Assembly: GCA_025210675.1 (NCBI GenBank)
Contig: JAOARU010000010.1
Span: 1 to 35,119, forward strand
Source of the DNA: Candidatus Altimarinota bacterium
Lineage (GTDB): Bacteria; Patescibacteriota; Gracilibacteria; CAIRYL01; GCA-016699755
Direction of reading: 5' to 3'
Length of the DNA stretch: 35,119 nucleotides
Shown here: in pieces, positions 9,546-25,571 of the stretch
How the letters are laid out: each line of letters starts with the position of its first letter
Position numbering within the stretch: the first letter of the stretch is position 1
The notes under the pieces: model-generated
Told to the model about the DNA's origin: nothing
Database searches by the model: none
The model's input: the letters and a program-made list of their open reading frames with translations, nothing else
Program-made: the position numbers and the translations under genes

Positions 9546-9738
9546 GTAAAATTGAAATAATATATCTTTCGCACGTTAAAATGATTGGTTTATGGTTTTG
9601 GTTACTGGGTTTGCGATTTGTTTGCTTGGGTTATTGGGTTATTGAGGTTTAAGATAGTGAGTCGCTGAACACTTTTTTTGTTCAATATATAGGAAATAGT
9701 TTTATGGATAGCGAGAGGTGAGGTGATATGTGTAGGGT

Positions 9739-9764
9739 AACGCGGAGAGATGGCAGAGTGGTCG
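9739..9764 (+). repeat. Duplicate of the tRNA-Ser 5' end (26-bp direct repeat)
   Basis: These 26 bases are identical to 9868-9893, the first 21 nt of tRNA-Ser plus 5 nt upstream; identity stops after GTGGTCG. The 129-bp offset means about 103 bp of AT-rich sequence separates the copies. The fragment cannot form a tRNA. It may be an insertion/excision scar or a local duplication at an integration hotspot. The rest of the gap 9546-9872 shows no gene; TTGTTC followed by TATATA near 9680-9700 could be promoter-like. Confidence 0.85.
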
Positions 9765-9872
9765 CCATATGATTAGAGACGGTACTATAAACACTAGATT
9801 AATACATTAAAAACTCGGTTATTATCTCGATACTGTCGCAAGTCAGATTGAGATATATATATAACAAAACGC

Positions 9873-9962
9873 GGAGAGATGGCAGAGTGGTCGAATGCGA
9901 CGGTCTTGAAAACCGTTGTGGCGGCAACGTCACCGTGGGTTCGAATCCCACTCTCTCCGCCA
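9873..9962 (+). tRNA. tRNA-Ser(UGA), CCA encoded
   Basis: The acceptor stem GGAGAGA (9873-9879) pairs with TCTCTCC (9952-9958), followed by discriminator G9959 and an encoded CCA (9960-9962). The anticodon arm is ACGGT-CTTGAAA-ACCGT, giving anticodon TGA (serine, UCA codons). A long variable arm (GTGGCGGCAACGTCAC) and the T-arm GTGGGTTCGAATCCCAC complete a class II serine tRNA. It marks the boundary between housekeeping genes and the inserted element. Confidence 0.97.
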
Positions 9963-10495: not shown

Positions 10496-10960
10496 TTAAA
10501 CTTTTCTGATTCTATCTATTCGATATGTGTAAGCTCTTCTTCTATGACCATATCCAGAGAAGCATTGTATGTGATTCTCATCTATTATTCGGAAATTAGA
10601 GTAAGTAGTTGGACTTGTTTTGTCTTTGTAATAAAAACTTATGGTTCTACCAGATCTTTGGCATTGTTGTAAGTAAGAACGAATTTTTTCTATGGATACC
10701 TCTGGAGTAAAATTTTTATCAAAACTACTAATGGTTTCTAATCTTTTTCTTTTTACAGCTTCTAGGCCAAGTTTTTTTCTAAATGTATGAAGAATTCTAT
10801 TGTTTTCCTTTTCATAACAATACACACATAAATCAGTGTTTTTGAAAGGGAAATACTTTGCTTCATAAATCTCACCATGCCCTTCACAATAACGATTGTC
10901 TCCACTTCGGAGAGCATCAATATTTTGATGTAATTCTTCTAGAATTTCTGATTTTGAGAC
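10496..10960 (-). CDS. Zinc-ribbon plus WYL-like domain, probably a -1 frameshift extension of the helicase
   Basis: This frame has no ATG, GTG or TTG upstream of a GTG at 10825, which would cut through the metal site. Read from 10960, where a -1 shift in the helicase would enter, it gives 154 residues. First a cysteine/histidine cluster (CEGHGE, then CVYC about 26 residues later) suggests a zinc ribbon. After a basic helical stretch comes a C-terminal barrel-like segment (RTISFYYKD ... HIQCFSGYGHRRRAYTYRIDRIRKV) that resembles the end of WYL domains, which in other proteins bind ligands or nucleic acid and regulate defence genes. The WYL call is from pattern only. If the shift does not occur, the GTG form (109 residues) is the fallback. 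The next gene starts 1 nt after its stop. Confidence 0.6.
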   Translation of the reverse strand, partial: VSKSEILEELHQNIDALRSGDNRYCEGHGEIYEAKYFPFKNTDLCVYCYEKENNRILHTFRKKLGLEAVKRKRLETISSFDKNFTPEVSIEKIRSYLQQCQRSGRTISFYYKDKTSPTTYSNFRIIDENHIQCFSGYGHRRRAYTYRIDRIRKV

Positions 10961-13900
10961 TTTTTTTTTAGTAAAAGATTTGTAAGACGAACATTCAATG
11001 TTTCAATAGGATCTTCTCCTAAATTAAAACGGTTTATTCGAATAAATTTATATCCATAGCCTTCTAGAATTTTTTGACGATAGACGTCTTCATCTTTCAT
11101 ATAAAATTCGTAGTTTGAAGCGTTTACTTCAGATAAATCAGTAAAGTGTTCTTTAAATCCATCATATTCGATGATGATTTTTTGATTTTTAAAGATTAGT
11201 AGAAAATCAACTTTGTAAGCTGGATGACTATAAGTCTTATCTAGTTGTTTTAAGTATTTCCCAAGCTCAAATTGAGGAATAAACTCAATATCTTCTTTAT
11301 TGTTTTTATAGAATGGCGTTTCATAAAAGTATTTTTGAATTTTATGTTCCATCCCTGATTTTTCATCTGTTCCTCCAATAATTTGTTTCTTACCTTGTTC
11401 TAGCTCGTTCTGATAGTGAATTAAGGCAGTTTTTATTTCACCAGAGAATTCTTCAATTGGTTTACTCAGAACAAAGTGAATACATTCTTTTGCACGACTA
11501 AAGCCAACGTTTAACCGTTGAGCTTTAACGGTTCCCTCATATTCGTCATCACCAGCAGACAGATCTTTTGGAAAAATCCAAACGAGCTTATCTTTCTCTT
11601 TGGTTGCTACCATAGAATAAAATATATAATCACGTTCTTCTCCCTGACAGGTATCAAATGTCATAATTTTCAGTCGACATTTTTCAAATAACCAATCCCT
11701 TTCTGAAAGTGCATTTATTTTTTCCCATAGCAATGAGACTTGTTCTCTATGAGGAGTGATAATTCCCAAACTTTGTTCTATATCGTTCTCTTTAAGCTCT
11801 TTTAATTTTTCAATAATAAAGTTGGCCTCTAATTCGTTTGTATTTTTTGTTTCATCCAACAACCCATCATGATCTATAACCTCAAATTTTATAACTTCAT
11901 CGATAGGCTTTCCTCGAACCTTCATACATTGAAGCTGGTTACCATAGAAATACTTATCAGAATAAGAAATAATTTCTGGGTAACAACGGAAGTGCTTCTT
12001 GAGAAGACATTCATAATTACGGATAAATCGAGTGAACTTAAGAATTGAATTCTTTATATCAAAATTATCTTTAATTTTATTCATCCAACCGAATGTATCT
12101 TCTCCGTTTATTCGTTCGTCTTTAAAAGTTTTTTGAATATTGCTCTTATACTGTTGGTTTGTAACCTTGCTGGCATTATTCGACTTAACATTTGAAAATT
12201 GTTTATCGTCCCCAAGAATGACTATTTTCTTTCCTCTAATAAGTGCTGGTAACGCTTGAGCAATACTAACCTGAGAAGCTTCATCAATAATTATTAAATC
12301 AAACAGATCTTTCTCTAGGGGAATAAACTCTCCATAATCTCTAATTCCAGCAAGAATACAGGGGAAAGCTTTTTTTAAGTTTTCAAATAATCCTTTTGGG
12401 AATTTTTCTTTGTTTTTGATGATGTTTTTTAAGGTATTAGCCTCACTCGCATTGTTATCTACGTACTCAATGATTCTTTTGTCTAAGAAATGAGTCATTT
12501 CAGCGGTAACAAGTTCTTCAACTTCGTGTATAGACTTAGCATAAAGATCTTTAGGCTGATTTTTGAAACCCTCTTCAAGTAAATTTTTAACCCTTTTTAG
12601 TTCTAAATATTTTTGAAGATTTTCATTTTTAAGAAGATCTTTTGCCTTTTGGGACATACTTTTTAGTGACTCAAATTCTGACGGTTGTAGTTTTTTTATC
12701 GTATTGTTAAATTCTTCAGGATCTTCTAACTCTTTAAAAACATAAGAAAACAAGTCATAAGCCTTTTGAAGTGTTGTGATTTCTTTTTCAGGGTTTTCTA
12801 TTCCAAAAAATGGAAAGGTTTCTTTAAATTCTCTTGTGGCTTTTGTAATGTTTCCATCTTGGAATAAGTAGCCCAATAATGGTCGTTTAAGTTTTTCTAA
12901 TTTATTAATGTAAGTAAGGAAAACATCTAATGCACTTGCTGGATCTTCATCTTCAAAAGAGAACTGATCAAGAGTTGACGCTTCAAATTTATCAGAAAAG
13001 AATTTTTGAGCATTTATTATGATTTGCTCAATTTGTAACAAATTTTCTATATCTGACTTTTCACAATTTTCTAGAGTTAAATAATTGGATATCTGCTCTA
13101 ACAGATCTTTTTCATCTTTTGTGAGACTGGTAGTTACATCAATATTTTCAAAATAGAAGGATACATCCTCCATACTTATATTTTCATAGAACTTTATGTT
13201 TTCTTCTAAATTTTGTTTTGAAGCTTCAATTAAATCTACTTTTCTTCCAGTATATTGATCTTTTTTATGCTTATAAACTCTATAATGCTCCTTGAGCTGG
13301 TTCATTGTTTGTTCTCCAACTATTTTGTAGAATTTATTTCCTGTTTTCCCAAGTCTTAAAATTGGATTTTGAAAACCATCTTCATGGCGAACTTTATTTA
13401 ATGTTTCTGATATTTTATCTTCTACAACATCAAGGGCTTCTTTCTTATCCGAGAGAACCAAAACAGATTTTTCTTCTAATAAAGCCTTACAGATGATGGC
13501 TGTAATAGTATGACTTTTTCCTGTTCCAGGTGGACCTTCAAGAATTAGGAATTTGCAATTTTCTTTTTGTAAAGCCGTTAAGACCTGCTTTTGTTCATCA
13601 TTTAATGGAATAGGACTTTCAACCGTTAGTTTTTGAGCAATATCACTATTGTGCCATTCATCACCAACTTCTTCCATAAAAGCTCTTGGGTTCTCTTCCA
13701 CAAAACCATTTAGAAGTGTTGAAAAACTGGCTAGTAAATCTTCGTTTCCTAATATCTCTTCATAATCATTGATTAGTGCTTCATCTGAACGATCAAAAAG
13801 AAACAAATATGATTTATTTGAGAGATAAGTAAGTAGGTTTATACTCTTTTGCAAGTCTGATTTTTGGACATCAATACTTCGGTTTAACTCAAAGAAGTTT

Positions 13901-14931
13901 TCAATCTTTTGTATAATATTTGTCAGTGTTGGTAAAAAGGGATTCTCTTCGTTTATGTACAAAATACGCTCAAAGCTACCAGCCAGAGTGTCTTTTTTTC
14001 CAAATTGTTGATTAAATTCTTGAACAACAAAGTCTATTGCTTTGGTATTAACATATACTCTTTTTTCAAAATTAAAGATGAACTTATTTTCTTCCTTTTG
14101 AATCCCTACAGGAATATAAAACACTGGAAACTTTTCTTTTCCTAGAGCTATTTCATAAAAGTATAGATAGACCTCTGTCTTATCAATAAGTTGGTTGTTT
14201 CTATAAATTTGATATAAATCGTAGAAAGCATCACTTACCGATATCTCCTCGAAGAACTTTACCAAATTTTTCTTAAGAGTTGGTAAAGTTAAAATTGTTT
14301 TAAGAGACTCTTCGAGATTAAAATCTTCTTTTTCTTGAAAATATTGTTGTAACATTTCCATATATTGATTTTCAAAGACTGCAAAGAGAGCTTCAATTAT
14401 CTCTGCTTCTAATTGAAATTTGCTGTTTTCATCAGCTAAGTCTAAATTTTCTAAAGGCTTATCCAAATCATCTAAAAAGGGTAAAACAAAAATTCTTCCT
14501 AAAAACTGTTTAGTGTCATCTTTGGCTTCTTCTAAAAATTTGTCATATTCTTTGGCATATATTGCAAGCTTTTCTTCTAAGTCTGTTTGTATTTCTTTAA
14601 TAGCTTTTACAAGTGATTCTTCTTCTATTTTATCAACTCGACCTTTAATTAGTTTTAATAAAGCATCAGGAATATTGTTTGTATAACCACCTTTTTTAAT
14701 CGTTATTGAATCTTTTTTAAATCCACTATTGAAAAGAGTTACTAAATCTTTTTTTAGTTTAGGGTACTTTTCTAAATCAAAACCAACTTTTAAATCTTTA
14801 ACTGTTTTTTTAATTGTGTTTCGTTTTGGAATTCTTCGCTTTTTAAAATCTGTTTCCAAAAAACTCATAAAGTATTTACCAACTTCTTTTACAAATAGGT
14901 TCTCTGATGGATTTTTTATATTATTACTCAT
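10939..14931 (-). CDS. Large SF1 (Upf1-like) helicase with C-terminal PD-(D/E)XK-type nuclease domain
   Basis: 1330-residue protein. A long N-terminal region without known motifs precedes an SF1 helicase core. Motif I is LEGPPGTGKSHT (about 465); motif II DEASQ in LIIIDEASQVSIAQALPAL (about 882); motif III ILGDDKQFS. Later motifs are KHFRCYPEIISYSDKYFY, IMTFDTCQGEERDYIFYSM and RLNVGFSRAKECIHFV (about 1145). The AAA insert between Walker A and B has helical, coiled-coil-like sequence (about 560-830). The C-terminus (about 1225-1310) has AYKVDFLLIFKNQKIIIEYDG ending in GYGYKFIRIN, matching the DUF559/Vsr-like nuclease fold with D-ExK-type residues. Such helicase-nuclease fusions are frequent in prokaryotic defence loci; a defence role here is inference. 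Its frame ends at an A9 run that may shift into the next ORF. Confidence 0.82.
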   Translation of the reverse strand: MSNNIKNPSENLFVKEVGKYFMSFLETDFKKRRIPKRNTIKKTVKDLKVGFDLEKYPKLKKDLVTLFNSGFKKDSITIKKGGYTNNIPDALLKLIKGRVDKIEEESLVKAIKEIQTDLEEKLAIYAKEYDKFLEEAKDDTKQFLGRIFVLPFLDDLDKPLENLDLADENSKFQLEAEIIEALFAVFENQYMEMLQQYFQEKEDFNLEESLKTILTLPTLKKNLVKFFEEISVSDAFYDLYQIYRNNQLIDKTEVYLYFYEIALGKEKFPVFYIPVGIQKEENKFIFNFEKRVYVNTKAIDFVVQEFNQQFGKKDTLAGSFERILYINEENPFLPTLTNIIQKIENFFELNRSIDVQKSDLQKSINLLTYLSNKSYLFLFDRSDEALINDYEEILGNEDLLASFSTLLNGFVEENPRAFMEEVGDEWHNSDIAQKLTVESPIPLNDEQKQVLTALQKENCKFLILEGPPGTGKSHTITAIICKALLEEKSVLVLSDKKEALDVVEDKISETLNKVRHEDGFQNPILRLGKTGNKFYKIVGEQTMNQLKEHYRVYKHKKDQYTGRKVDLIEASKQNLEENIKFYENISMEDVSFYFENIDVTTSLTKDEKDLLEQISNYLTLENCEKSDIENLLQIEQIIINAQKFFSDKFEASTLDQFSFEDEDPASALDVFLTYINKLEKLKRPLLGYLFQDGNITKATREFKETFPFFGIENPEKEITTLQKAYDLFSYVFKELEDPEEFNNTIKKLQPSEFESLKSMSQKAKDLLKNENLQKYLELKRVKNLLEEGFKNQPKDLYAKSIHEVEELVTAEMTHFLDKRIIEYVDNNASEANTLKNIIKNKEKFPKGLFENLKKAFPCILAGIRDYGEFIPLEKDLFDLIIIDEASQVSIAQALPALIRGKKIVILGDDKQFSNVKSNNASKVTNQQYKSNIQKTFKDERINGEDTFGWMNKIKDNFDIKNSILKFTRFIRNYECLLKKHFRCYPEIISYSDKYFYGNQLQCMKVRGKPIDEVIKFEVIDHDGLLDETKNTNELEANFIIEKLKELKENDIEQSLGIITPHREQVSLLWEKINALSERDWLFEKCRLKIMTFDTCQGEERDYIFYSMVATKEKDKLVWIFPKDLSAGDDEYEGTVKAQRLNVGFSRAKECIHFVLSKPIEEFSGEIKTALIHYQNELEQGKKQIIGGTDEKSGMEHKIQKYFYETPFYKNNKEDIEFIPQFELGKYLKQLDKTYSHPAYKVDFLLIFKNQKIIIEYDGFKEHFTDLSEVNASNYEFYMKDEDVYRQKILEGYGYKFIRINRFNLGEDPIETLNVRLTNLLLKKKSQNQKF
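10960..10969 (-). promoter_or_regulatory. Candidate -1 ribosomal frameshift site (A9 run, A AAA AAG)
   Basis: Near the helicase 3' end the mRNA reads CTA AAA AAA AAG TCT in the helicase frame. A AAA AAG (10966 to 10960) is the same heptamer, in the same phase, as the E. coli dnaX frameshift site; A AAA AAA also occurs three bases earlier. The zero frame ends at TAG (10941-10939) six codons later, while the -1 frame stays open for 154 codons. A small hairpin TCTCC-GAAGT-GGAGA lies about 50 nt downstream. I see no strong Shine-Dalgarno-like stimulator upstream. Confidence 0.5.
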
Positions 14932-15100: not shown

Positions 15101-16327
15101 TTACTCCAAAATAATTAATCCATTCTTAATCTTTAGCTTATCTTTAAAGCTTCTCAAAATATCAGATTTTTCTTTGTTTGATCCATCCTTGAGAATCCCG
15201 ACTAAGTACTCTTGAATCGTAATTGGATTGTCTGCGGATCTATATCGATTTATTTTTTCTAGATCATCCTTAATACGTCTATTAAGTCTTAAGTGTTCGG
15301 CTTTTACGGCTACTACAATTTTAGCTACTTCATCGAATAATTTCTCTTCCCGAATATACTTACACTGACATTTTCTCGTACCACCGTATTTGTTACATTT
15401 GTAGTAGGTGTATTCTTTGCCGTGTCGGTTTATGTGAGCGGTTCCACTTACGCCTGAGCCACAATCGGCACACTTTAAAATCTTGCTGAAGAAGAAATCT
15501 TTACGCCCCCATTTTCCTTTCTTACAGGTTTTCAGATTCGCTTGAGCTTTATCAAAAAGTTCTTTGGTAATGATTGGTTTATGAATTCCCTGATATATTA
15601 ATCCGCCATAACTGAACTCTCCATAATAAAAGGTTTCTTTTAGGATTTTGTAAGTCAGACTCAGTCCCACTACTTTTCCTGTGATACTTCTGAAGCCTTC
15701 ATCTTCTAAGTATTCTTTTACCTGTCTTCCGCTCAAGTTGTTGTGGGCGACATATTCAAAAGCCTTTTTAATAAACGGAGCACGTTCTTCGTCTAGTTCT
15801 ATCGTGCTGACTTCTCCATATTTTGCTCCTCGTACTAGTTTGTAACCAATTGGAACGGGTCCAGGTCTCACACCCATTTCGCATTTGGTTCGTTGCCCTC
15901 GTTTTACGTTCTTAGATCTATTATCGTTCTCTAGTTTTGCTTGAGAACAGAGAATCATGAGAAGGAATTTTTCATCTGGGGTATTAGTAAAACCTTGCCC
16001 ACTGGTTTTAATTTTTACTAGTACTTTCTGATCCATCATATCGACCAGTCTTCCTAAATCTCCAGCATTCCGACTCAGTCTATCTGGGGCCCATGTCAGA
16101 ATGGCATTAAACCGTCCTTCCTGTAGACCTTCCAAGAGCTGAATAAATCCTGCTCTTTTTCCAGAATCTTTGGCGGATTTACTTTCTTGTATTCGTTCTA
16201 CAATATTGAGTCCTTGTTTCTCCGCAATGCGTTCCATTTCGGTTATTTGTGACCCGATTGATAGAGCTTGTTTTTCATCTGATTCAGATGATTTACGAGC
16301 GTATAAACAGTAATTTAGTTCTTCCAT
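15101..16327 (-). CDS. Large serine recombinase (site-specific integrase)
   Basis: 408-residue recombinase that would catalyse integration and excision of the element through a serine-DNA intermediate. The N-terminal catalytic domain has YARKSSESDEKQALSIGSQ, with the nucleophilic serine near residue 13-14, and the arginine motif APDRLSRNAGDLGRLVDMM at about 80-98. The recombinase domain follows (KCEMGVRPGPVPIGYKLVRG onward, about 150-260). A zinc ribbon CADCGSGVSGTAH ... YYKCNKYGGTRKCQCKYI sits at about 285-325, then a coiled-coil-like tail. The length is short for a phage integrase (often 450-600), but all parts are present. Its ATG is preceded by a perfect 19-bp palindrome. It is the only recombinase in the window and probably mobilises this element. 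Confidence 0.93.
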   Translation of the reverse strand: MEELNYCLYARKSSESDEKQALSIGSQITEMERIAEKQGLNIVERIQESKSAKDSGKRAGFIQLLEGLQEGRFNAILTWAPDRLSRNAGDLGRLVDMMDQKVLVKIKTSGQGFTNTPDEKFLLMILCSQAKLENDNRSKNVKRGQRTKCEMGVRPGPVPIGYKLVRGAKYGEVSTIELDEERAPFIKKAFEYVAHNNLSGRQVKEYLEDEGFRSITGKVVGLSLTYKILKETFYYGEFSYGGLIYQGIHKPIITKELFDKAQANLKTCKKGKWGRKDFFFSKILKCADCGSGVSGTAHINRHGKEYTYYKCNKYGGTRKCQCKYIREEKLFDEVAKIVVAVKAEHLRLNRRIKDDLEKINRYRSADNPITIQEYLVGILKDGSNKEKSDILRSFKDKLKIKNGLIILE

Positions 16328-16331
16328 TTTT

Positions 16332-16350
16332 TGAATAAATTATTTATTCA
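16332..16350. promoter_or_regulatory. Perfect 19-bp palindrome upstream of the recombinase
   Basis: TGAATAAAT-T-ATTTATTCA is a perfect inverted repeat with 9-bp arms, 4 bp upstream of the recombinase ATG (16327). Its position over the translation start region fits an operator for self-repression or an mRNA hairpin blocking translation. Confidence 0.5.
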
Positions 16351-16368
16351 TATTAATGACAAACAAGG

Positions 16369-16460
16369 TTATTGAGTCTAGACTTTTTTCCCTCTAAAAG
16401 CTGATATAAAGACTTTTACAAAAATCCTGATTCTGCTATATTTATCTTGCGACTCAATAA
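16369..16460. promoter_or_regulatory. 10-bp inverted repeat flanking the divergent promoter region
   Basis: TTATTGAGTC (16369-16378) and GACTCAATAA (16451-16460) are exact reverse complements 72 bp apart and bracket the promoter of the structured RNA. A related copy, TTATTGGGTC, lies at 16570-16579 inside that RNA. The sites could be operators for one regulator, or the second and third could pair in the RNA. Confidence 0.5.
16415..16442 (+). promoter_or_regulatory. Strong promoter for structured RNA R1
   Basis: TTTACA (16415-16420), a 16-nt spacer and TATATT (16437-16442), with TGC directly before the -10 (extended -10, TGCTATATT). Predicted start near 16449, right at the 5' helix strand of the RNA. 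Confidence 0.65.
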
Positions 16461-16622
16461 TGATTTATTTTAAAAACCCTAACCGGCGAAAGGTGCTTGT
16501 ACCTACCCGAATGGATGCCCACAAGAATGAGGGCAGTTCTCTTCATTGAGGTATCCATAGGGTATGTTGTTATTGGGTCGCACCTTGACGCAACTGCCCT
16601 CACTTTGTGGTGATGGTTTTTT
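16451..16622 (+). ncRNA. Candidate pseudoknotted leader RNA or riboswitch-like element (R1)
   Basis: A GC-rich island between AT-rich sequence. Pairings found by eye: A, TGAGGGCAGTT (16528-16538) with AACTGCCCTCA (16592-16602), extended by CCACAA/TTGTGG (16519-16524 / 16605-16610); B, AAGGTGC (16490-16496) with GCACCTT (16580-16586); C, TACCC plus ATGGAT (16504-16516) with ATCCAT plus GGGTA (16553-16564); D, GACTCAATAA (16451-16460) with TTATTGGGTC (16570-16579, one G-U). B and C are nested, while A crosses both: a pseudoknot. D also crosses B. Helix A is followed after six bases by T6, GTG and T5, so it may end the transcript, 32 nt before the next ATG. It has its own promoter. I do not recognise it as a known family. 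Confidence 0.65.
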
Positions 16623-16653
16623 GTGTTTTTCAATTTTTTAATTTTTTCACATC

Positions 16654-17532
16654 ATGAAAAACAACACGCCAGTAGGAACGGATAAAACGCCTCCTAAAAA
16701 ATCTACATTTGTTTCAGTTTTACAATGGATATTTGTTTTAGGTATTGGATTACCAATGACTTTAGCTTTTATCTCAGGTTTTACCGAAGATGAAACTGCA
16801 TCTCCAAAAGAAGTAATAACAACAAGCGAAGATAAGGTTCAACCAGTTGAGTATACAATTATCAAATCAGAAGACGAAAGTCACAAAGCGCTTGGTAATA
16901 AATTACTTTCTCAGTATTCAGCGCAAGAACTAAACAATTTACCGATTGATAAAAAGTTTGGGTATAGCATCATTGTATCCCCACAGATAAAAGAAAAAGA
17001 AGTAGTACCAACCATTGATAAAATTATTAAAGACCTTACTTCAAAAGATGGTGATCTAGATGAAATAACCTTGTTTCTCTACAGTGATGAATCGATTGCT
17101 AAAAACGGACTCTATGATGTGGCTCGTGCCACATGGGCACCATACGGAAAGCTTGGAAACATGACTCCAGAAATTGCTAGAAGTAATGACCGTAGTTCAT
17201 ACAAAACAACTTATGATATCAAGGAAAACCTAGAAACCTATTTAGCTAAACGAGGTGAATCAGAGGAAAAATTTGTACTTACCGAAGAACAAAGAAGAAC
17301 TTTCTTTAAAGAAGTTGGAAAAGCAGAACGAAGAGCTTCAGATGAAGCTAATGCCAAATACCCAATTAATAACTGGGAAGATAAGGCTGAGCTCACAAGA
17401 AATATGGATTACCTCTATCAACTTGAAGAAAAGTATCGAGCAGAGGTTTTTAAAAAATATGGCATTACAGATAATCAATACACTGAAATCATCACAGAAG
17501 GAATGGAAGAAAACTGGGAAATTGGGTTCTAA
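16654..17532 (+). CDS. Membrane-anchored protein of unknown function
   Basis: 292 residues. A short basic, proline-rich N-terminus (DKTPPKKS) is followed by one membrane helix at about residues 20-41 (VLQWIFVLGIGLPMTLAFISGF), then an acidic, threonine/serine-rich linker and a soluble domain from about 65. That domain has alternating strand and helix character (FGYSIIVSPQIKEKEVVPTIDKII ... DEITLFLYSDESIAKNGLYDVARATWAPYGK), distantly recalling small DUFs of secreted or phage-encoded proteins. A helical charged tail follows. I do not recognise a function. It is the only rightward gene in this part of the element. Structured RNA R1 is its 5' leader, and its stop overlaps the terminase stop by four bases in convergent orientation (17529-17532). 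Confidence 0.75.
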   Translation: MKNNTPVGTDKTPPKKSTFVSVLQWIFVLGIGLPMTLAFISGFTEDETASPKEVITTSEDKVQPVEYTIIKSEDESHKALGNKLLSQYSAQELNNLPIDKKFGYSIIVSPQIKEKEVVPTIDKIIKDLTSKDGDLDEITLFLYSDESIAKNGLYDVARATWAPYGKLGNMTPEIARSNDRSSYKTTYDIKENLETYLAKRGESEEKFVLTEEQRRTFFKEVGKAERRASDEANAKYPINNWEDKAELTRNMDYLYQLEEKYRAEVFKKYGITDNQYTEIITEGMEENWEIGF

Positions 17533-18980
17533 AACCTCAAAAGTTCAATAGTGACTGTTCCCATTTTTTTATTTCTTTCACTGAAATAAATAACCATTTG
17601 GGAAAAAGCATCAGCCAGATCATCGTGTTTCTCAACGCCAAAATCGAGTATTTGATTTTCTAAATCTTTTATTCCAAACGTAGGAAACCAAACCTTCCCA
17701 GAGCGAATGGCTTGTCCACTCAAGGCAAGCCTTGCTCGTTTATCTCCTTTGGGGCTTACTGGTTCGATATTCATATCAGGACATTCACTTCTTAGTTGTT
17801 GTGTCAAAGCTTTCTGGTAACCAACTTCTTCAATCAGTACCGTTTGTTTTTGATTTTCACTTCCTGGTCGGTTGTACAGTTCTTGGATTTTGGAAACAGT
17901 CTCGGGGAAAGTTAATTTCTCATTGATAGGATATGGATGAATAAATAAGAATTCTTCTCCATCCAAAGTAAAAATCATACCAGTAACAATGGTTGTGTAG
18001 TCGGCTTTCTGACTTTCGGAAACGGCTAAATCCATACTTAGTAAAATTTCTTTTAGTACCGCTCCTTCTGGAATGTTATCAATATATTTCATCCACTCCT
18101 TAAAAATCACTTGCTCACAGGTCGGCATTAAATAGAGCATAAATTCTCTTTGAAATGTGGCTTCATCTGCAACTTTTCGCCTTAAGGCTTCGATGTCTGC
18201 CATAGTCTTAAATTTTCTAGGCCACAAAATTACGCCATCCTTAACCAGCGGAAATTCATGAAAACTCCCATCTTTTTCGCCTGACTCAATTTTTTCTTTG
18301 AATCGATTCAAGACGGCATCCCGATGAAGCAGATTTCCCACAATAACCATCTTGGTTGTAATTTGATCTCCTAGATTAAATACATCTCCTGACAGCCAGT
18401 TAAATATCTTGTCTCGTCCATCTTGAGTTCGTACAGAATCTAGATCCTCAATATCATCACAGATAAGTAGATCTGGTCGAGTGGCACGATGCTTGATTCC
18501 TCGAATTCATTGTTCGTTAGACGAAATCATAATTCGGGCATTATGTTTGGGAAGTACGATAGTACTACTGTTCCACTCGTTACTCTCTTCTCTGAATGGT
18601 CCGAGGTTATGAGCCAGTAGTTTGTTATGTTCCAACTCTGCTTTTAAGTTGGAAAAAATAAGCTTCGCTTGCTTTTGGGTTCGACTAAATATCACAACGA
18701 ATTTCTTTTGTTGCTTTCCCAGTATCGCCCAGATTGGATATGACATACTGACAATAGTTGATTTTCCAGAGCCACGGAAAGCCTGAATGATGACAAGTGA
18801 TTCATCATTTTCGGTGAGATCAATAATCTTTTTCTGAAAATCTGCCGTAGGACAGGTAATATAATCAGAAAAGTACATATGGAAGAACCAGTAATGGCTT
18901 TCTTTTGTAATGGCTCGTCGTAAAACTTCATCCTGAGCCATATTTTTTAGTAATTCTTGTTTTTTATTTTCATGTGTCAT
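17529..18980 (-). pseudogene. Phage terminase large subunit, interrupted by one in-frame UGA
   Basis: Packaging motor ATPase and nuclease. From the ATG at 18980 the frame reads 157 codons to TGA (18509-18507), then continues in the same frame without any other stop to TAG at 17529, 483 codons in all before the stop. The first part has the Walker A motif FRGSGKST (about 68-75) and RTQKQAKLI. Directly after the TGA come IRGIKHRATRPDLLICDDIED, the Walker B region (about 159-179), and later the RNase H-like nuclease domain (LSMDLAVSESQKADYTTIVTG, LIEEVGYQKALTQQL, KHDDLADAFSQMV). The residue before IRG is often glycine in this family, so GGA to TGA is a likely origin. Either a recent nonsense mutation or a read-through site. 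A separate start at 18350 (GTG/ATG) would give only the nuclease half. Confidence 0.85.
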
Positions 18981-19383
18981 TTTCTTCTAAGTTAGGAGCT
19001 ATTAAGGTGAGGGCTTGCTCTAATTGAGCCTGTTGTTCTTCATTTAAAGTTTCGTCTGTACTTCGTATATCAGCGGAAACCTTTACTCGGGTGGCATAGT
19101 CTTTGTGATGGTGCTTGAGCCAAAAGATAATGGCGGTTAGATTCTTATCCTTGATTGAAGATAGTAGTTGTGACTCTGCCATGTCGTTCATTAGATGTTT
19201 TCCCTCAAGCAGAGCTTTATCGCTCTGCTTTCGAAAGTCTGGATCTTCTTTACGCCAGCGGTAATAAGTCGCTCGACTGACACCACTTTTCTCACACACC
19301 AGCTGCACAATTGGTGTCTTTTGGAGATGAGATAGGATAACCGCTTTTTGTTGCTGTTGCCGTGTATCTATTTTCTTCTTCAT
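18970..19383 (-). CDS. HTH protein, probable small terminase subunit
   Basis: 137 residues. A helix-turn-helix of the phage small-terminase type sits at about residues 14-50 (LSHLQKTPIVQLVCEKSGVSRATYYRWRKEDPDFRKQSD). The rest is helical: MAESQLLSSIKDKNLTAIIFWLKHHHKDYATRV, which is typical of this family, then an acidic glutamine-rich tail. The small subunit recognises packaging sites on phage DNA and delivers it to the large subunit. It lies between the methyltransferase (ATGA overlap at 19383-19380) and the large terminase (11-nt overlap), which supports the assignment. Confidence 0.8.
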   Translation of the reverse strand: MKKKIDTRQQQQKAVILSHLQKTPIVQLVCEKSGVSRATYYRWRKEDPDFRKQSDKALLEGKHLMNDMAESQLLSSIKDKNLTAIIFWLKHHHKDYATRVKVSADIRSTDETLNEEQQAQLEQALTLIAPNLEENDT

Positions 19384-20135
19384 AGTTTTTTGGCTTTAAG
19401 AGCGGTTAGTTTTTCCCAACGATCAATGATTACTTGGCAGTACTCAGGTGAGAGTTCTACCATCAAACATTTTCGTTTGGTTTGTTCGCAAGCAATGAGC
19501 GTAGAGCCGCTTCCTCCAAAGCAGTCATAGACAAAATCTTTCGTTCTTGAAGAATTGAGAATTAGTCGCCTCAAGATTGAAATCGGCTTCATGGTCGGAT
19601 GTAGATCATTCTTTTTCGTCTTCGGACTAATCAGAATAGATTTATCTTTGGACTTCAGAAACTCATGAGTACCTCTCCAGCCATAGGCAATGAGTTCGTG
19701 CTGTGGCAAGTAGTCGAGTCTTCCAATGACGGCTCCTGTTTTTACCCACACTAAAAGCTGTGAGAATTTAAATCCTTGATCAAGTAAGGCTTCTCGCATT
19801 GGAAACATCATCTTGTCAGAATTGAAAATGTAGTACGTATTCTTTCGTTCTAAGAGATCTTTGATTGGATCGAGCCAACGGCTCGTAAAATCTTTAAACT
19901 CTTGATCTGACTGAATATGATCATTCTCTATGGGTACGTGTTCTTGTTTTGATTTCGTAAACCCCTTCTTTCCCTCTACAAGAGCAACTCCATACGGAAC
20001 ATCAGTCAAAATAAGTTTTATCTTATCCTCTCTAAGAAGCTTAGAAACAATTTCAGAATCAGTCGCATCTCCACAAACAAGCCGATGATCGCCTAACTGA
20101 AAAATATCGCCGTATTTAATTACATTTTTTGACAT
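19380..20135 (-). CDS. DNA adenine or cytosine-N4 methyltransferase (DNA_methylase N-4/N-6)
   Basis: 251-residue amino-methyltransferase. The catalytic motif reads DVPY (in LILTDVPYGVALVEG, about 41-55), a change from the usual DPPY. The C-terminal SAM-binding motif is FVYDCFGGSGSTLIACEQTKRKCLMVEL (about 202-229), preceded by HPTMKP. This is the beta-class order, catalytic motif before SAM motif. It has the same GDIFQLGDHRLVCGDATD entry as the C-terminal half of the neighbouring ParB-methyltransferase, so the two are paralogous. Its start overlaps that gene by 20 nt. Likely role: methylation of phage or element DNA against host restriction. V in place of P in the motif could alter activity. 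Confidence 0.88.
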   Translation of the reverse strand: MSKNVIKYGDIFQLGDHRLVCGDATDSEIVSKLLREDKIKLILTDVPYGVALVEGKKGFTKSKQEHVPIENDHIQSDQEFKDFTSRWLDPIKDLLERKNTYYIFNSDKMMFPMREALLDQGFKFSQLLVWVKTGAVIGRLDYLPQHELIAYGWRGTHEFLKSKDKSILISPKTKKNDLHPTMKPISILRRLILNSSRTKDFVYDCFGGSGSTLIACEQTKRKCLMVELSPEYCQVIIDRWEKLTALKAKKL

Positions 20136-21393
20136 GGTTTTTGGGGTTAAGAGCTAAATAACGTTGGATGATGACATCACAAAAACGAGGATCTTTTTCT
20201 ACCAAGAAGACTTTTCTCCCGAGTTGTTCACAAGCAATCAACGTAGATCCCGATCCTCCGAACATATCAAGCACATGGTCTCCAACTTTAGTACATCGCT
20301 TGAGAGGTTTTTCATGAAGCGTCACAGGTTTTTGTGTCGGGTGGAGGTATTCTGATGTCGGTAGTCGTTTTACCATCCAGATATCCAGCAGATCCATGAT
20401 GTCATCAATGGTGCGGTTACCTGTATCAATTTCAGGATTCAGAATTTCAGTAAAGTTCAGAGACTTATCTGATAAATACGGTTTACCAATTGTCCCATAC
20501 ACGCATGGTTCAAAACACTTATTAAACGCCACTTGAGGAGTGGTATTCTGATTGTTCTTGATCCACAAACACACTCTCTTGTTATCAATGCCGTGTTGCC
20601 GATACACATCCTGAAGTACGCCAATATATTTCTGGTCACACCAATAAAAAATATGAGCATTAGGTTCACAATGTTTTAATCCGCTTAGAAGTGTTGCTTC
20701 CAAAAATTTTCGGTACTCAGATTGAGTTAATTTGTCATCAACCTCTCCGCATTTGTACTTATCTTTTTCGCCTAAACCTTTCTGGTAATCATAGGAAATA
20801 TTATACGGAGGATCAGAATAGATAGTGTTGATTTTATTGTCTCCAACCAATCTTTTTACAGTTTCTGGATCTGTTGAATCTCCACAAACAAGAAAATGAT
20901 TTCCTAGTTGGAACATTTCTCCATCTTTGGTTCTGGGCTCTTCGATTTCTTCCAATTCCTTCTGAACATCAAACTCATCTTCTTCGAGTCCAAGACTTTC
21001 GTCCCAAATGATAGAAAGATCTGAATCATCAAACCCCACATCAAGTAGAAGCTCTATATCGAACTCCGCTAGGAGTTTGAAATTCCATTCTCCAGTATTA
21101 CGATTAAGACGCAGATTTAACTCCTTCTCTTTGGCTAGATCGGGAATATTTACAAAGACGACAGGAACTTCTTTGAAATTTAGCTTCTTGGCAACGTGCC
21201 AACGAAAATGTCCGCCAATAAGGATATTTTCTCGTCCTTTGGCTTTATTGACGATAAACGGATCAATTAGACCAAACTGAGAGAGACTTTCTGTTAAGCT
21301 CGCTTCTGCTTTTTCATCCCACTTTCGTGGGTTGTATTCGGCAGGTTTGAGCGAATTAACAGGTACGTAAGCGATGTTGATGTTCTTGTTCAT
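20116..21393 (-). CDS. ParB-like nuclease domain fused to DNA methyltransferase
   Basis: 425 residues. The N-terminal ParB/sulfiredoxin-type domain (about 1-110) has VPVNSLKPAEYNPRKW, SLSQFGLIDPFIVN and ILIGGHFRWHVAKKL (the GxxR box). After an acidic linker comes a beta-class amino-methyltransferase, with DPPY in TIYSDPPYNISYDY (about 190), HPTQKP and VLDMFGGSGSTLIACEQLGRKVFLVE (about 375-400). This two-domain arrangement is common in phages and integrative elements. First gene of the leftward packaging/methylation operon. Its leader contains structured RNA R2 and a TTGACA promoter. It starts at the ATG at 21393, with a U-rich stretch and no Shine-Dalgarno. Confidence 0.92.
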   Translation of the reverse strand: MNKNINIAYVPVNSLKPAEYNPRKWDEKAEASLTESLSQFGLIDPFIVNKAKGRENILIGGHFRWHVAKKLNFKEVPVVFVNIPDLAKEKELNLRLNRNTGEWNFKLLAEFDIELLLDVGFDDSDLSIIWDESLGLEEDEFDVQKELEEIEEPRTKDGEMFQLGNHFLVCGDSTDPETVKRLVGDNKINTIYSDPPYNISYDYQKGLGEKDKYKCGEVDDKLTQSEYRKFLEATLLSGLKHCEPNAHIFYWCDQKYIGVLQDVYRQHGIDNKRVCLWIKNNQNTTPQVAFNKCFEPCVYGTIGKPYLSDKSLNFTEILNPEIDTGNRTIDDIMDLLDIWMVKRLPTSEYLHPTQKPVTLHEKPLKRCTKVGDHVLDMFGGSGSTLIACEQLGRKVFLVEKDPRFCDVIIQRYLALNPKNHVKKCN

Positions 21394-21420
21394 GTGAATG
21401 AATTAAAAAATAAAATAAGA

Positions 21421-21610
21421 ACGTGCTCAGCATCTACAGAACTTCGAGAAGAGTTTTGGCTCTTTTTTTATTCCGTTGCTGAGCACGCCCCGTCTGGTAA
21501 GGCTCTTGCCTTCCAACATCGTGCTTGAAAATTTTTACCAATTTAGCAGCGCTTCTCGGTGAAGGTTTCCAAATTGATCAACCACAATTGTGTGCTTTTT
21601 TAAAAACTCT
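21421..21610 (-). ncRNA. Candidate pseudoknotted leader RNA (R2) before the methyltransferase operon
   Basis: Read on the minus strand. Helix A: CGTGCTCAGCA (21487-21477) pairs perfectly with TGCTGAGCACG (21432-21422). Helix B: CGAGAAG (21558-21552) pairs with CTTCTCG (21451-21445), crossing A, so a pseudoknot of the same order as R1. A possible helix D: AGTTTT (21608-21603) with AAAACT (21457-21452), its 3' strand directly before that of B, again as in R1. A competing pairing exists: AGCACG (21525-21520) can take CGTGCT (21487-21482) away from helix A. A short local hairpin AAGGC-AAGA-GCCTT lies between. Helix A is followed by a U-rich tract and the ParB-methyltransferase ATG 28 nt later. 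The promoter below would start inside the D helix region, so the exact 5' end is unsure. Confidence 0.55.
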
Positions 21611-21615
21611 GTCAA
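21583..21615 (-). promoter_or_regulatory. Promoter and palindromic operator of the methyltransferase/terminase operon
   Basis: On the minus strand TTGACA (21615-21610), a 17-nt spacer, then CACAAT (21592-21587), a moderate -10. The -10 lies inside the perfect palindrome CACAATTGTG (21583-21592), a good place for a repressor. Confidence 0.5.
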
Positions 21616-21733
21616 ACCGAAAACCTAGTCATAGAGAGAAAACTCGGGATAACTCGTAAAAGCTCCTTGACGAAAAACAGATGAAAAACCTTACAGAATT
21701 TAAGGGGTATCTATTCAAAATTTCTTCAAAGGG

Positions 21734-21739
21734 TAGAAT
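21734..21739 (+). promoter_or_regulatory. Putative -10 for the Zn/HTH gene
   Basis: TAGAAT about 30 nt before the ATG at 21769; the -35 region at 21710-21716 is poor. The interval 21616-21768 shows nothing else clear. Confidence 0.3.
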
Positions 21740-21768
21740 GAACTTATTCGTTTCTAAGCCCCAATATT

Positions 21769-22431
21769 ATGAAACTTGAAGAAAAGGCGATCGCAGAGTT
21801 CCAAAGAATTTACAAAAAAGAATACGGCAAGGAGCTACCCTATGAAGAAGCCGAAAAACAAGCTTATCATTTGATACGTTTTGCGGAGTTAATGGTGGAT
21901 ATGTATATGACTGATGAAAACAGAAAAGATCGGTTAAAAACAGAGCCCAAAGGATTCCCTCTAGATGGTGTTGGCTATACTTGTCCTATCTGTGGACAAA
22001 ATACACGAGAAGGAGAGGCATGGTTTGATAAATATGGTATCAAGTGTCTAACTTGTAAGAAAGGGATTGATCGAAAAGAGATTCCTGCCTCGATGGCTAA
22101 GTTTACTGATAAATGGTATTCAAAATATGATATGGAAAGTCGATTTGGCTTGAAAACTCCAACGCTCAGAAAGTGGGTTAGAAATGGAATTTTAAAGTCT
22201 AGATGTATCACTAATGATGGCAAAGGCGTACACGCTGAAATCTTTTTAATCAAAGATGACAAAGGTTTTCTTCCACCAAAAGAGTTAACTGAATCTCAAA
22301 CTGTTCAGGAAGAAAAAGATGGTCAAACGTGGATTCGTTCCGAACCATGCTACAGATTTGTTGATCCATACAAACGCTTAGAAGGATATGAAATTATGAA
22401 CTACTTAAATTTTGTTAAAGCAGATGAATAA
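21769..22431 (+). CDS. Zinc-ribbon/helix-turn-helix protein, mobile-element associated
   Basis: 220 residues. The N-terminal helical motif FQRIYKKEYGKELPYEEAEKQAYHLIRFAELM (about 9-40) is of a kind I have seen repeatedly in small proteins of Patescibacteria mobile regions (from memory). A zinc ribbon CPICGQ ... CLTCKK lies at about 70-95. A probable HTH follows, YDMESRFGLKTPTLRKWVRNGIL (about 120-142), similar to MerR/excisionase-type helices. The C-terminal region is unassigned. A DNA-binding regulator or excision factor for the element is plausible. Divergent from the methyltransferase operon and overlapping the next small ORF by 8 nt. Confidence 0.75.
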   Translation: MKLEEKAIAEFQRIYKKEYGKELPYEEAEKQAYHLIRFAELMVDMYMTDENRKDRLKTEPKGFPLDGVGYTCPICGQNTREGEAWFDKYGIKCLTCKKGIDRKEIPASMAKFTDKWYSKYDMESRFGLKTPTLRKWVRNGILKSRCITNDGKGVHAEIFLIKDDKGFLPPKELTESQTVQEEKDGQTWIRSEPCYRFVDPYKRLEGYEIMNYLNFVKADE

Positions 22432-22558
22432 ACCAGAATTTACTACTCCATCAGAAATGAAAAGACTCATAGAAATCTTAGAGGAGCAGCAAGACAAAGA
22501 ACGAACAACTCCTGAAGGCTATATTCGTCTGAAGAATGGAGAACTGGTGATGTTGTAG
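22424..22558 (+). CDS. Small 44-residue ORF
   Basis: ATG at 22424 lies in ATGAATAA, overlapping the end of the Zn/HTH gene by 8 nt, so translational coupling is likely. The product starts MNKPEFTTPSEMKRLIEIL and contains a charged helix (EEQQDKERTTPEGYIRLKNGELVML) with no known motif. Its clean codon flow and overlap support it as a real gene of unknown role. Confidence 0.55.
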   Translation: MNKPEFTTPSEMKRLIEILEEQQDKERTTPEGYIRLKNGELVML

Positions 22559-22582
22559 TTTCTTGGAATGCTAAAACGACTA

Positions 22583-22611
22583 TTCAAATCTCTTTTAAAA
22601 AGTAGTATAAA
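22583..22611 (+). promoter_or_regulatory. Putative promoter of the second helicase
   Basis: TTCAAA (22583-22588), a 17-nt spacer and TATAAA (22606-22611), about 28 nt before the helicase ATG. Confidence 0.4.
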
Positions 22612-22638
22612 TATATTGTTTTGTTCAATTATTTTTAA

Positions 22639-25341
22639 ATGCAAAAAATAGATAAAGCTATTTTGAATATAGATAAACTTCTTTGTTCTAATATTGATAA
22701 ATTTGATGATACAGAACGGGGTGTTTTATCTCAAAATATGTTGGCACACCTTCGAGATTTTGTTGAGCATATCTCTTTAAAAGTTTTTAGTAATGGGGAA
22801 GATATTGAAATTAACTATGAAAATATTCAACTAGGAAATTCTCATGTTGCAAGAATAGGGAAATTGAAATTCTTAAAAAAATTTCATAAATTACTACAAA
22901 AGTCTACTTCTCATTACACGTTTGATGAAGAAAACTCCGAAAGGTTGATGTTAAAGTACTATGAGTACTTATTAAAGATAAAATCGTTTCTTAAAAAGCA
23001 GTATGACTTAGAAGTACTAGGTAATATTAGTAGATTTCCCATAAATACAGATAAGGCTCTTAGTGAGTACTACGAAAAAATTGCAGAGAAGATAAATCAA
23101 CCTGTCTCTAAAAGATCTAAAATACCTTCTGGTGATAGGTATTATATTCAAAAAATAAAACCCTTTTTTGTGGGTTATGAAGTTTATTACGAAGTAACTT
23201 TTACTCGTGCCAGCAACAATATCAGTAAATTTGATAGAATTATTGCATTCACACGGTTTGATATTCCTCCAAATTATGCCGTAAAACTTTCAATTAGTAG
23301 TGATAACATAAGTGTCTTAGATAAATCTATGCCAATTCAAATTATTGATAATTGGGATATATCAATTCGACCATGTGAGCTTAATAATTTTGCTAAAATA
23401 TTTGGAAAAGATTTGAAAATGAGAGGAAACTCTCCTGAATCACGAGAGCTTATGTCTCTTCTGAAAAGATCTGGTCTGAATTTGTCAGAAATTATGAACC
23501 TTCCTGATTCTAATTATGAAGGTTTTAAAAATGCGTTGAAAATGAAAGTTAAAACTACTCATTTTCTAGACGTATTAGATGAGTGTCGAAATTTAATTAA
23601 AAACAAAAAACCAGGTCATAATATCATTGTTTATTTACTTTATCGATTAGATAACAAAATCATAAAAAAGCAGTACAATCCTATTTCTTGTGCTAAACTA
23701 TCAGATTTACATCTAGAGTATGGTTGTATTCCTTTTGAAGAGATGCCATTTAATACATCTCTAAAAAATCATAACCCTAAAATTTTAGATTTATTTGATT
23801 CTATTGACTCTAGTGATAGAGATCATGAGTTACTTGCAAGATTTGTTAAGAATAAAACAGAATCTAATGGATGCTTATATACTTCAAAGGAGGAATTATC
23901 ACATTTTGATAATACAGATGAACTTATTCAAAAATACAATAATTCACTTTATTTCTCTCATGGAAACAGGAAACTCGATAGTTACAAAGACCATGTTTAT
24001 ATAAGGGGATATGAAAATGATGTGCTTAGTATTATTAGCCAGCTCAAAGATTTATCAATAGAAGGATTCAAGGACTATTCTAAATCTGTTAATGCTTGGT
24101 TAAGCTTTTCTGATTATGATATTGATTGTGACCAGAAAAAGTTCTTTATGGAACAAATGTTTGAAGATTCTAGGGTGGCTCTAATTTATGGTGCAGCAGG
24201 TACTGGAAAATCAACTTTGATAAACCATATATCTAATTTTTTCAATGACGATAGAAAACTTTATTTAGCCAATACAAATCCTGCAGTAGATAATTTGAGA
24301 CGAAAAGTAAAAGCCTCTAATTGTGATTTTAAAACCATAGCGAAATTTTTAGCTCGAAGTAATCAAGACCGAGAATTTGATTTAATTGTTATTGATGAAT
24401 GCAGTACTGTTAGCAATTCTGATATGAGAAAAATACTCGAAAAAGCTTCTTTTTTGTCTTTAGTTTTAGTTGGAGATATATTTCAAATAGAATCTATTTT
24501 ATTTGGAAATTGGTTCAGTGTTATTCGTCCATTTGTACCACCTCATTCAGTTTTTGAACTGACAAAACCTTATAGAACAACAAATAAAAATCTACTAGAA
24601 TTATGGGATAAAGTTAGAAATATTGAAGATGATATTGTTGAGCATATAACGAAAAACAATTATTCAGCGAGACTTGATGAGTCAATTTTTGATTACACAC
24701 AAGATGACGAAATTATTCTTTGTTTAAATTATGATGGTCTTTATGGAATCAATAACATAAATAGATTTTTACAAAGTAATAATCAAAGCAAATCAGTTCG
24801 ATGGGGCATACAAACCTATAAGGTCAATGATCCTGTTTTATTTAATGAAACGGAACGTTTTTCTCCTTTGATTTACAATAATCTAAAAGGTCGAATTATT
24901 GATGTGGTTAGCTCTGACGATCAAATACAATTTGATATAGAAATTGATAAAGTAATCAATGGAATGGATGTATATGGTTACGACTTTGATCTTCTTGATA
25001 GTGAGTCAGAACACACATCATTAATTCGTTTCGTTGTTAATAAGCACAAGAGTACAGATGAGGATGATGATTCTGCAGATACTGTGATACCTTTTCAAGT
25101 TGCCTATGCTGTTTCAATTCATAAGGCGCAAGGTCTAGAGTATAATTCTGTTAAGATTGTGATAACAACCGAAACGGAAGAGTTAATCACTCATAATATT
25201 TTTTATACAGCCATTACTCGAGCTCGAGAAAATTTAAAAATATACTGGACTCCTGAAGCAGGACAAAAGATTTTAGAGTCTTTAGAAACCAAGAATAACA
25301 ACAAAGATATTGCGTTGATTAAAGCAAAAAATGATCTTTGA
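22639..25341 (+). CDS. SF1 helicase (RecD/UvrD-like) with a large unknown N-terminal region
   Basis: 900 residues. The C-terminal 400 form an SF1 helicase: motif I IYGAAGTGKSTLINHI (about 515-530), Ia LANTNPAVDNLRRKV, motif II LIVIDECSTV (about 582-591), motif III LVLVGDIFQIES, then KPYRTTN. The final motifs are VAYAVSIHKAQGLEYNSVKIVI (about 818-840) and FYTAITRARENLKIYWT (about 855-871). The first 500 residues are mostly helical and match nothing I know; no PD-(D/E)XK or HEPN signature is evident. It stands alone with its own promoter and a strong terminator. Single-gene helicases with long unknown N-termini occur among phage-defence genes. Defence or element replication are both possible. 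Confidence 0.8.
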   Translation: MQKIDKAILNIDKLLCSNIDKFDDTERGVLSQNMLAHLRDFVEHISLKVFSNGEDIEINYENIQLGNSHVARIGKLKFLKKFHKLLQKSTSHYTFDEENSERLMLKYYEYLLKIKSFLKKQYDLEVLGNISRFPINTDKALSEYYEKIAEKINQPVSKRSKIPSGDRYYIQKIKPFFVGYEVYYEVTFTRASNNISKFDRIIAFTRFDIPPNYAVKLSISSDNISVLDKSMPIQIIDNWDISIRPCELNNFAKIFGKDLKMRGNSPESRELMSLLKRSGLNLSEIMNLPDSNYEGFKNALKMKVKTTHFLDVLDECRNLIKNKKPGHNIIVYLLYRLDNKIIKKQYNPISCAKLSDLHLEYGCIPFEEMPFNTSLKNHNPKILDLFDSIDSSDRDHELLARFVKNKTESNGCLYTSKEELSHFDNTDELIQKYNNSLYFSHGNRKLDSYKDHVYIRGYENDVLSIISQLKDLSIEGFKDYSKSVNAWLSFSDYDIDCDQKKFFMEQMFEDSRVALIYGAAGTGKSTLINHISNFFNDDRKLYLANTNPAVDNLRRKVKASNCDFKTIAKFLARSNQDREFDLIVIDECSTVSNSDMRKILEKASFLSLVLVGDIFQIESILFGNWFSVIRPFVPPHSVFELTKPYRTTNKNLLELWDKVRNIEDDIVEHITKNNYSARLDESIFDYTQDDEIILCLNYDGLYGINNINRFLQSNNQSKSVRWGIQTYKVNDPVLFNETERFSPLIYNNLKGRIIDVVSSDDQIQFDIEIDKVINGMDVYGYDFDLLDSESEHTSLIRFVVNKHKSTDEDDDSADTVIPFQVAYAVSIHKAQGLEYNSVKIVITTETEELITHNIFYTAITRARENLKIYWTPEAGQKILESLETKNNNKDIALIKAKNDL

Positions 25342-25347
25342 TTTTTG

Positions 25348-25375
25348 AGACACTCTTTTTTATAGTGTCTTTTTT
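25348..25375 (+). terminator. Intrinsic terminator after the second helicase
   Basis: AGACACT (25348-25354) pairs with AGTGTCT (25364-25370), followed by T5. It begins 7 nt after the helicase stop and marks the right side of the element's gene content. Confidence 0.8.
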
Positions 25376-25420
25376 GTCTCATTTCTAAGAGCCTGAAATA
25401 TCAAAAAATATCTAGCTAAA

Positions 25421-25571
25421 GGGTAGGAGACCGAGCCTGCCCGCCATTTAAATGTTCTTGTGCCGAAGGCACGAGGTTATTTAAATGTGCGTGAGGAGTG
25501 GAGATAAGAACCCAAAGGTTCGACATCAAGGAGTTCGAGAGAAGCCGACGCATTTATGCGGAGATTTCCGA
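25421..25571. repeat. Modular hairpin-rich intergenic repeat, copy 1
   Basis: GC-richer, non-coding block in the gap 25342-25759. Parts in order: hairpin GGGTAGG/CCTGCCC (25421-25442); long hairpin with CATTTAAAT (25445-25453) and ATTTAAATG (25479-25487) around GTGCC-GAA-GGCAC; then GGTTCGAC, 21 bases and CGACGCATTTATGC (25517-25559), which includes the palindrome GCATTTATGC; then CGGA/TCCG (25559-25570). The GGTTCGAC/CGACGCATTTATGC module recurs at 35076-35119 after another long hairpin. The rest of the gap (25572-25732) holds no gene; GAGAGGGGATTTTTG near 25635-25649 resembles 34930-34943. Confidence 0.65.

Follow-up and report, generated by a model that had tools for sequence, protein, structure and literature searches.

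The window, that is, the whole stretch of 35,119 nucleotides analysed here (contig JAOARU010000010.1 of a Candidatus Altimarinota bacterium with a 0.98-Mb genome), contains an element whose genes, read from right to left, encode two DNA methyltransferases, the small and the large terminase subunits and a large serine recombinase. The methyltransferases, terS and terL form the conserved block of the element (17529-21393, minus strand), the recombinase, or integrase, occupies 15101-16327 (minus strand), and genes of this set (MTase1-MTase2-TerS-TerL-Int) recur in about 25 to 30 of the regions compared from the same bacterial class. A single in-frame stop codon interrupts terL (17529-18980, minus strand), and in this copy the packaging module has a decayed look. 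Between the recombinase and terL lie a structured leader RNA, R1, divergent from the recombinase, and a rightward cargo gene (16654-17532, plus strand) that converges on terL. The cargo gene encodes a 292-aa protein with an N-terminal membrane segment (by eye) and no family match, and it gave no tblastn match in the related regions compared.

Regarding the surroundings, the probable outer end of the element is marked by the motif GGGTAGGAGACCGAGCCTGCCCGCC (25421-25447, plus strand), which is also present at the far end of a related element, referred to here as G057, where PolyA_pol and PTPS genes flank the element; a related form stands beside int in G103, G108 and G199. The motif AAAGGGTAGGWGACC...CGCC at these outer ends (window 25421-25447; L087 9900; L048, L049 and L050 near int) is probably half of an attachment site. 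Compact elements of about 6-10 kb (window 15101-25447; L087 2864-9925; L106 7201-13373) combine an integrase and two methyltransferases with both terminase subunits, show no recognisable capsid genes, and are possibly phage satellites of this bacterial class. Within the window, a 900-aa protein (22639-25341, plus strand) matches the candidate phage-defence family PDC-S53 over its full length (1339 bits) and has a Dda/RecD-like helicase domain in its second half. A 1330-aa helicase with MkoA-, MkoC- and PDC-S37-like matches is encoded at 10939-14931 (minus strand), so that the integrase has defence-like genes to its left as well as to its right. Further to the left, a 39-nt direct repeat (9726-9764 and 9855-9893) covers the 5' part of a tRNA-Ser gene, with one copy truncated, and looks like an integration or duplication scar.

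R1 extends from the start of its basal helix, P1, to the end of a T-run (16448-16622, plus strand). A promoter scan found an extended -10-like box, TGCTATATT, at 16434-16442 (10 of 12 matches together with TTTACA at 16415, a consensus match only), and P1 begins 6 nt past it. P1 is a 16-bp helix, TGCGACTCAATAATGA/TTGTTATTGGGTCGCA, beginning at TGCGACTC, with its arms at 16448-16463 and 16567-16582. It encloses a local hairpin, AGGTG-CTTG-TACCT (16491-16504), and the helix P3, whose arms are ATGGATGCC (16511-16519) and GGTATCCAT (16550-16558). The loop of P3 presents A5', TGAGGGCAGTT (16528-16538), which pairs perfectly over 11 bp with A3', AACTGCCCTCA (16592-16602), located past P1; only 2 of 2000 dinucleotide shuffles match this pairing, and helices A and P1 cross each other. 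A3' overlaps a terminator-like hairpin with a T6 run (16596-16622, -8.7 kcal/mol), at which a standard terminator scan made no call and which is the weakest of the three found in the family, its counterparts reaching about -14 kcal/mol. The minimum free energy (MFE) z of R1 is -3.45.

The first-pass annotation had described the same pseudoknot, made of helices D, B and A with B crossing A, in two leaders, R1 (plus strand, 16451-16622) and R2 (minus strand, 21610-21421). All the sequences it quoted for both leaders were found in the window, and in R1 helices A and D are real. Helix D is stronger than claimed and corresponds to P1, its 5' arm being D5' lengthened outward by TGC and its 3' arm D3' plus the GCA of B3'. 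Helix B (AAGGTGC/GCACCTT), the proposed crossing helix, is at chance level: with A fixed, 467 of 2000 shuffles of R1 gave a crossing helix of equal length. It also competes with P1 for the GCA, and three of its seven pairs are broken in G057, the closest homologue of R1, where the 5' arm is still paired, locally, in the small hairpin that contains it (five of five pairs in R1 and in G057, with two one-sided changes). Helix B is thus unsupported, and in the pseudoknot of R1 the helix that A crosses is therefore P1 and not B.

R2 is a different object. Its helix A pairs perfectly over 11 bp, which 21 of 2000 shuffles match, but it is nested, without crossing, inside a long hairpin (21418-21491, minus strand; MFE z -5.4) that has 15 pairs with the G-U extension and is followed by a U-rich stretch. 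Helix B of R2 (CGAGAAG/CTTCTCG) is at chance level, being equalled in 728 of 2000 shuffles with A fixed, and its helix D is AT-only and lies partly within a predicted promoter (TTGACA-like, TTGACA at 21615). A descriptor combining P1, A and terminator matched R1 and not R2. No DNA match to R2 was found among the 353 class genomes or among phage records, nor any R2-like leader before methyltransferase homologues in 25 genomes. We therefore discarded R2 as a homologue of R1, and with it the idea of one pseudoknot family controlling both arms of the element. R2 is a real, strong hairpin preceding a methyltransferase gene, and its plainest reading is a simple leader terminator or attenuator. That the leaders precede the main early genes is likewise unsupported: the gene behind R1 is a cargo gene lying between terL and the integrase, and R2 stands before the methyltransferase-terminase block. 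The TTTTTTAATT tail said to be common to both leaders is indeed present in both, but it also precedes other starts of the genome (4 of 419, with ~1.3 expected; R1 and R2 account for two of these four).

Besides R1, we identified three further members of its family, G057, G014 and G174, all in the same bacterial class. The four RNAs have a P1 helix with inner stems, an apical loop that holds A5' (core GGGCA), A3' (core UGYCC) just past P1 and an ATG within about 40 nt downstream of the structure; all begin beside a -10-like box, with similar spacing between box and P1 (by eye in the three relatives). The G057 RNA is 78% identical to R1 in DNA sequence across its whole length, with an MFE z of about -6, and adjoins a recombinase that is 85% identical. 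The G014 RNA, first spotted by eye among the int-upstream regions of about 30 relatives, is unlike R1 in sequence, yet it has the full set of P1, P2, P3, A and terminator (MFE z -6.0) and occupies the equivalent position in the same gene block. The complete plan of P1, A and terminator did not arise in 4000 dinucleotide shuffles of each of R1, G057 and G014. For G014 the two-helix descriptor sum is only 47.5, and the case for it consists of its inner stems, its position and its match to G174; a covariance model built from R1 and G057 gave it 11.2 bits, with an E of 0.011 over the 10 kb searched, which is weak alone.

The fourth member came from a search of 348 genomes with a covariance model made from G014 alone and without helix A (32.9 bits, E 5.4e-5 per genome). 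It lies at L251 1501-1649 (G174:C10 from 30204) and has an MFE z of about -6 with mononucleotide shuffles. Its helices are P1 TGACCTCATAGA/TCTATGAGGTCA, P2 TGCGC/GCGCA and P3 ACACACC/GGTGTGT, and we saw no terminator hairpin in it. Since the search model did not contain helix A, the finding of A in this RNA (A5' GGGGCATCC, A3' GGATGTCCC) is an independent confirmation of that helix. The link between R1/G057 and G014/G174 is weak by covariance model and otherwise consists of the shared plan, the GGGCA/UGYCC core and the locus; we consider it probable that all four belong to one family.

No further members appeared in the 353 class genomes, in a 315-genome sample of the phylum or in 24 genomes searched with laxer filters, nor, at the sensitivity available, in plasmid, phage and viral collections. 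Several candidates were set aside. A DNA match to the P1 5' arm in G047 is apparently due to chance, being an A+T-rich stretch with no structure match. The weak covariance-model matches (G309, G205, G138, G376 and others) are partial, covering about 40-90 nt of the 187-position model, and were treated as chance, as was a match in the own genome, at L208. Among the pattern matches in viral contigs, two fell within coding sequence and 40 others lacked a model or descriptor match. Across 1.83 Mb of related sequence, descriptor scores reached 58 (a stretch of host genome), most being at or near the randomised level (maximum 48), and none of these other matches had inner stems beside a cargo start. 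Rfam 15, with C4 antisense RNA and the known riboswitches among its families, matched nothing in the window at the gathering threshold except tRNAs, and permissive scans gave only chance-level matches for R1, R2 and G174 and none for the G057 and G014 loci. As no Rfam family matches any member, the RNA is filed under no known family. The claim of an undescribed structured leader thus stands for R1, which has homologues, and not for R2 as a member.

The comparison of the members in pairs showed compensatory changes. Between R1 and G057, all 16 pairs of P1 are kept in both, with two A-U to G-C double changes; helix A keeps 10 of 10 gap-free pairs, its outermost U-A becoming C-G; and in the P2/P3 helix 87.5% of the cells are paired. 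When the partners were slid by one to three columns, pairing fell from 97% to 32-46%. Between G014 and G174, 51 of 52 cells of P1, P3 and A are paired (98%), with five double changes in 26 pairs. These include transversions, with a U-A pair of P1 turned into A-U and an A-U pair of A turned into U-A, for which there is no one-step route through G-U, and sliding the partners by one to three columns left no double changes. Selection on the terminator cannot explain the covariation of A in G174, since no terminator hairpin was seen there. The control shuffles are modest, with 58 of 500 and 12 of 500 reaching the observed covariation value, and as each comparison involves two sequences, the evidence is good but below R-scape grade. 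According to these results, the comparisons support a pseudoknot of A crossing P1 maintained by compensatory change in the R1 family, while for helix B, and for R2, the corresponding claim fell. We are highly confident that R1 is a genuine structured and conserved RNA.

The genes behind these RNAs are diverse. In the window, G057 and G014, the unit of RNA and cargo gene occupies the same place, beside int and converging on terL, with unrelated cargoes. The G057 cargo is a PD-(D/E)XK protein that matches the candidate defence family PDC-S26 (E 4e-128), a candidate phage-defence nuclease, and that of G014 is another membrane protein, not homologous to the R1 cargo. In G174 the downstream gene encodes a secreted SLH-domain (S-layer) protein, and there is no recombinase within 1.5 kb on either side, so the RNA family may extend beyond mobile elements. 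That an RNA is 78% conserved while the genes behind it are unrelated speaks for a general regulatory cassette and against the RNA partner of one protein. The R1 family is a small, apparently undescribed group of folded RNAs standing before cargo and surface-protein genes of ultra-small bacteria.

The layout of these RNAs is attenuator-like, in line with the suggestion of attenuation that had been made for R1. An intrinsic terminator lies between the promoter-like box and the start codon in R1, G057 and G014, and in these three of the four members A3' doubles as the 5' arm of the terminator, followed by 6-7 T just before the start codon. Because A3' belongs to both, the pseudoknot and the terminator are mutually exclusive. 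The computed energies are comparable (-16 to -19 kcal/mol for the A duplex, 4-12 for opening the loop and -9 to -14.5 for the terminator) and would make each state accessible from the other. These folds, their covariation, the overlap of A3' with the terminator and the position before diverse cargo genes can be read directly from the sequences; from them we infer a promoter, an order of co-transcriptional folding, a direction of switching and the existence of a trigger.

In our model, transcription would start at or beside the P1 5' arm, and P1, P2 and P3 would fold into a single long arm whose apical loop presents A5'. Once the polymerase has moved past P1, A3' would emerge and pair with the loop, forming the pseudoknot. 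If A forms first, A3' would already be occupied and the terminator hairpin kept from closing, which would favour read-through into the cargo gene. If instead the loop's own small stem, a ligand, a protein or an RNA masks the loop, A3' would pair with the downstream arm and transcription would stop at the U-run before the ATG. In G174, which has no terminator, the pseudoknot ends about 17 nt 5' of the ATG; acting near the ribosome binding region, it may affect translation. On this basis, the RNAs of the family probably switch their downstream genes on and off, and the reading of R1 as a cis-acting attenuator, one of four in a new family, is the one we favour, with some reserve.

One could argue that R1 is mainly a stand-alone small RNA of the element, terminated at the U-run and acting in trans like the phage RNAs CI or IsrK, with the downstream gene expressed by leakage only. 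Its promoter-like box and terminator would yield a compact product of ~175 nt, and there are precedents in IsrK of Gifsy-1, which occurs both in a terminated form, as an sRNA, and in a read-through form, as an mRNA, and in the P4 CI RNA, whose pairing leads to termination (PMC4825925). Yet the ATG follows closely behind the structure in all four members, G174 has no terminator and the complementarity is kept in cis; besides, no second copy of A5' or A3' (as 10- or 11-mers) was found in 766 kb of the host genome, and we consider such a role unlikely. A reading of the inverted repeats as DNA-level features, which would serve the serine recombinase as attachment site or operator, could draw on the short distance of about 100-330 bp between R1, G057 or G014 and the integrase start. 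Against it, the three G-U pairs of P1 kept in R1 and G057 would be mismatches in a DNA palindrome, the repeats are followed by a terminator and an ATG, about 40 other int-upstream regions that we examined lack an R1-type RNA, and G174 carries the same RNA with no recombinase within 1.5 kb on either side. We give this last possibility hardly any credit.

A further option is a ligand-binding riboswitch of a new class, with the GGGCA/UGYCC pseudoknot core as a small-molecule aptamer. The conserved core within a variable scaffold would suit it, as would the competition between pseudoknot and terminator, which resembles that of fluoride riboswitches (PMC11077080). However, the target genes (a candidate defence nuclease, membrane proteins and an SLH protein) are non-metabolic, their context suggests no metabolite, and four members are too few to infer a ligand. 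A new riboswitch class therefore seems to us doubtful, and slightly more so than a trans-acting RNA. A cis-acting attenuator remains our preferred reading.

Little is known of gene regulation in ultra-small, mostly uncultured bacteria and their phages. We can also conceive of a broader scenario, to which we assign a low probability, in which mobile elements of Patescibacteria place a new pseudoknot switch before interchangeable defence or surface genes, so that expression of the cargo awaits a specific signal, for example superinfection or contact with the host; a cellular S-layer gene would then have acquired the same switch. If true, a conserved RNA switch common to unrelated cargoes would show how elements silence defence and surface genes until they are needed, and it would offer an RNA sensor testable in a reporter without culturing the host. 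Among structured leaders without a known trigger, the R1 family is another orphan candidate.

Regarding known systems, our literature search on structured RNAs of these bacteria and on attenuators of defence genes, in which most subscription papers were outside coverage, returned nothing on this element. The R1 locus resembles the morons and defence hotspots of P2/P4-type prophages and satellites, where a small cargo locus, often an anti-phage system, is flanked by two conserved genes of the phage, but the accessible parts of the sources on these hotspots describe no conserved structured leader shared by unrelated cargoes, unlike in the R1 family (PMC9122126; PMC7067206). P4 CI and Gifsy-1 IsrK are prophage-borne leader RNAs that exert control by pairing and premature termination and occur in terminated and read-through forms; they pair with complementary sequences, located at another site of the transcript or in trans, and the genes under their control are those for replication, an antirepressor or an antiterminator (PMC4825925). 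The R1 family shares with them the prophage-borne leader and the layout of premature termination and read-through, but its pairing takes place inside one leader and the gene behind it is a swappable cargo. In the transcriptional fluoride (crcB) riboswitch, the pseudoknotted domain folds co-transcriptionally and competes with a downstream intrinsic terminator (PMC11077080). The R1 family differs from it in its non-metabolic target genes and in having no Rfam match. Its RNA is also longer, and its helices are different. Nevertheless, with a pseudoknot that competes with a downstream terminator, the fluoride riboswitch is the nearest well-studied design to that of the R1 family.
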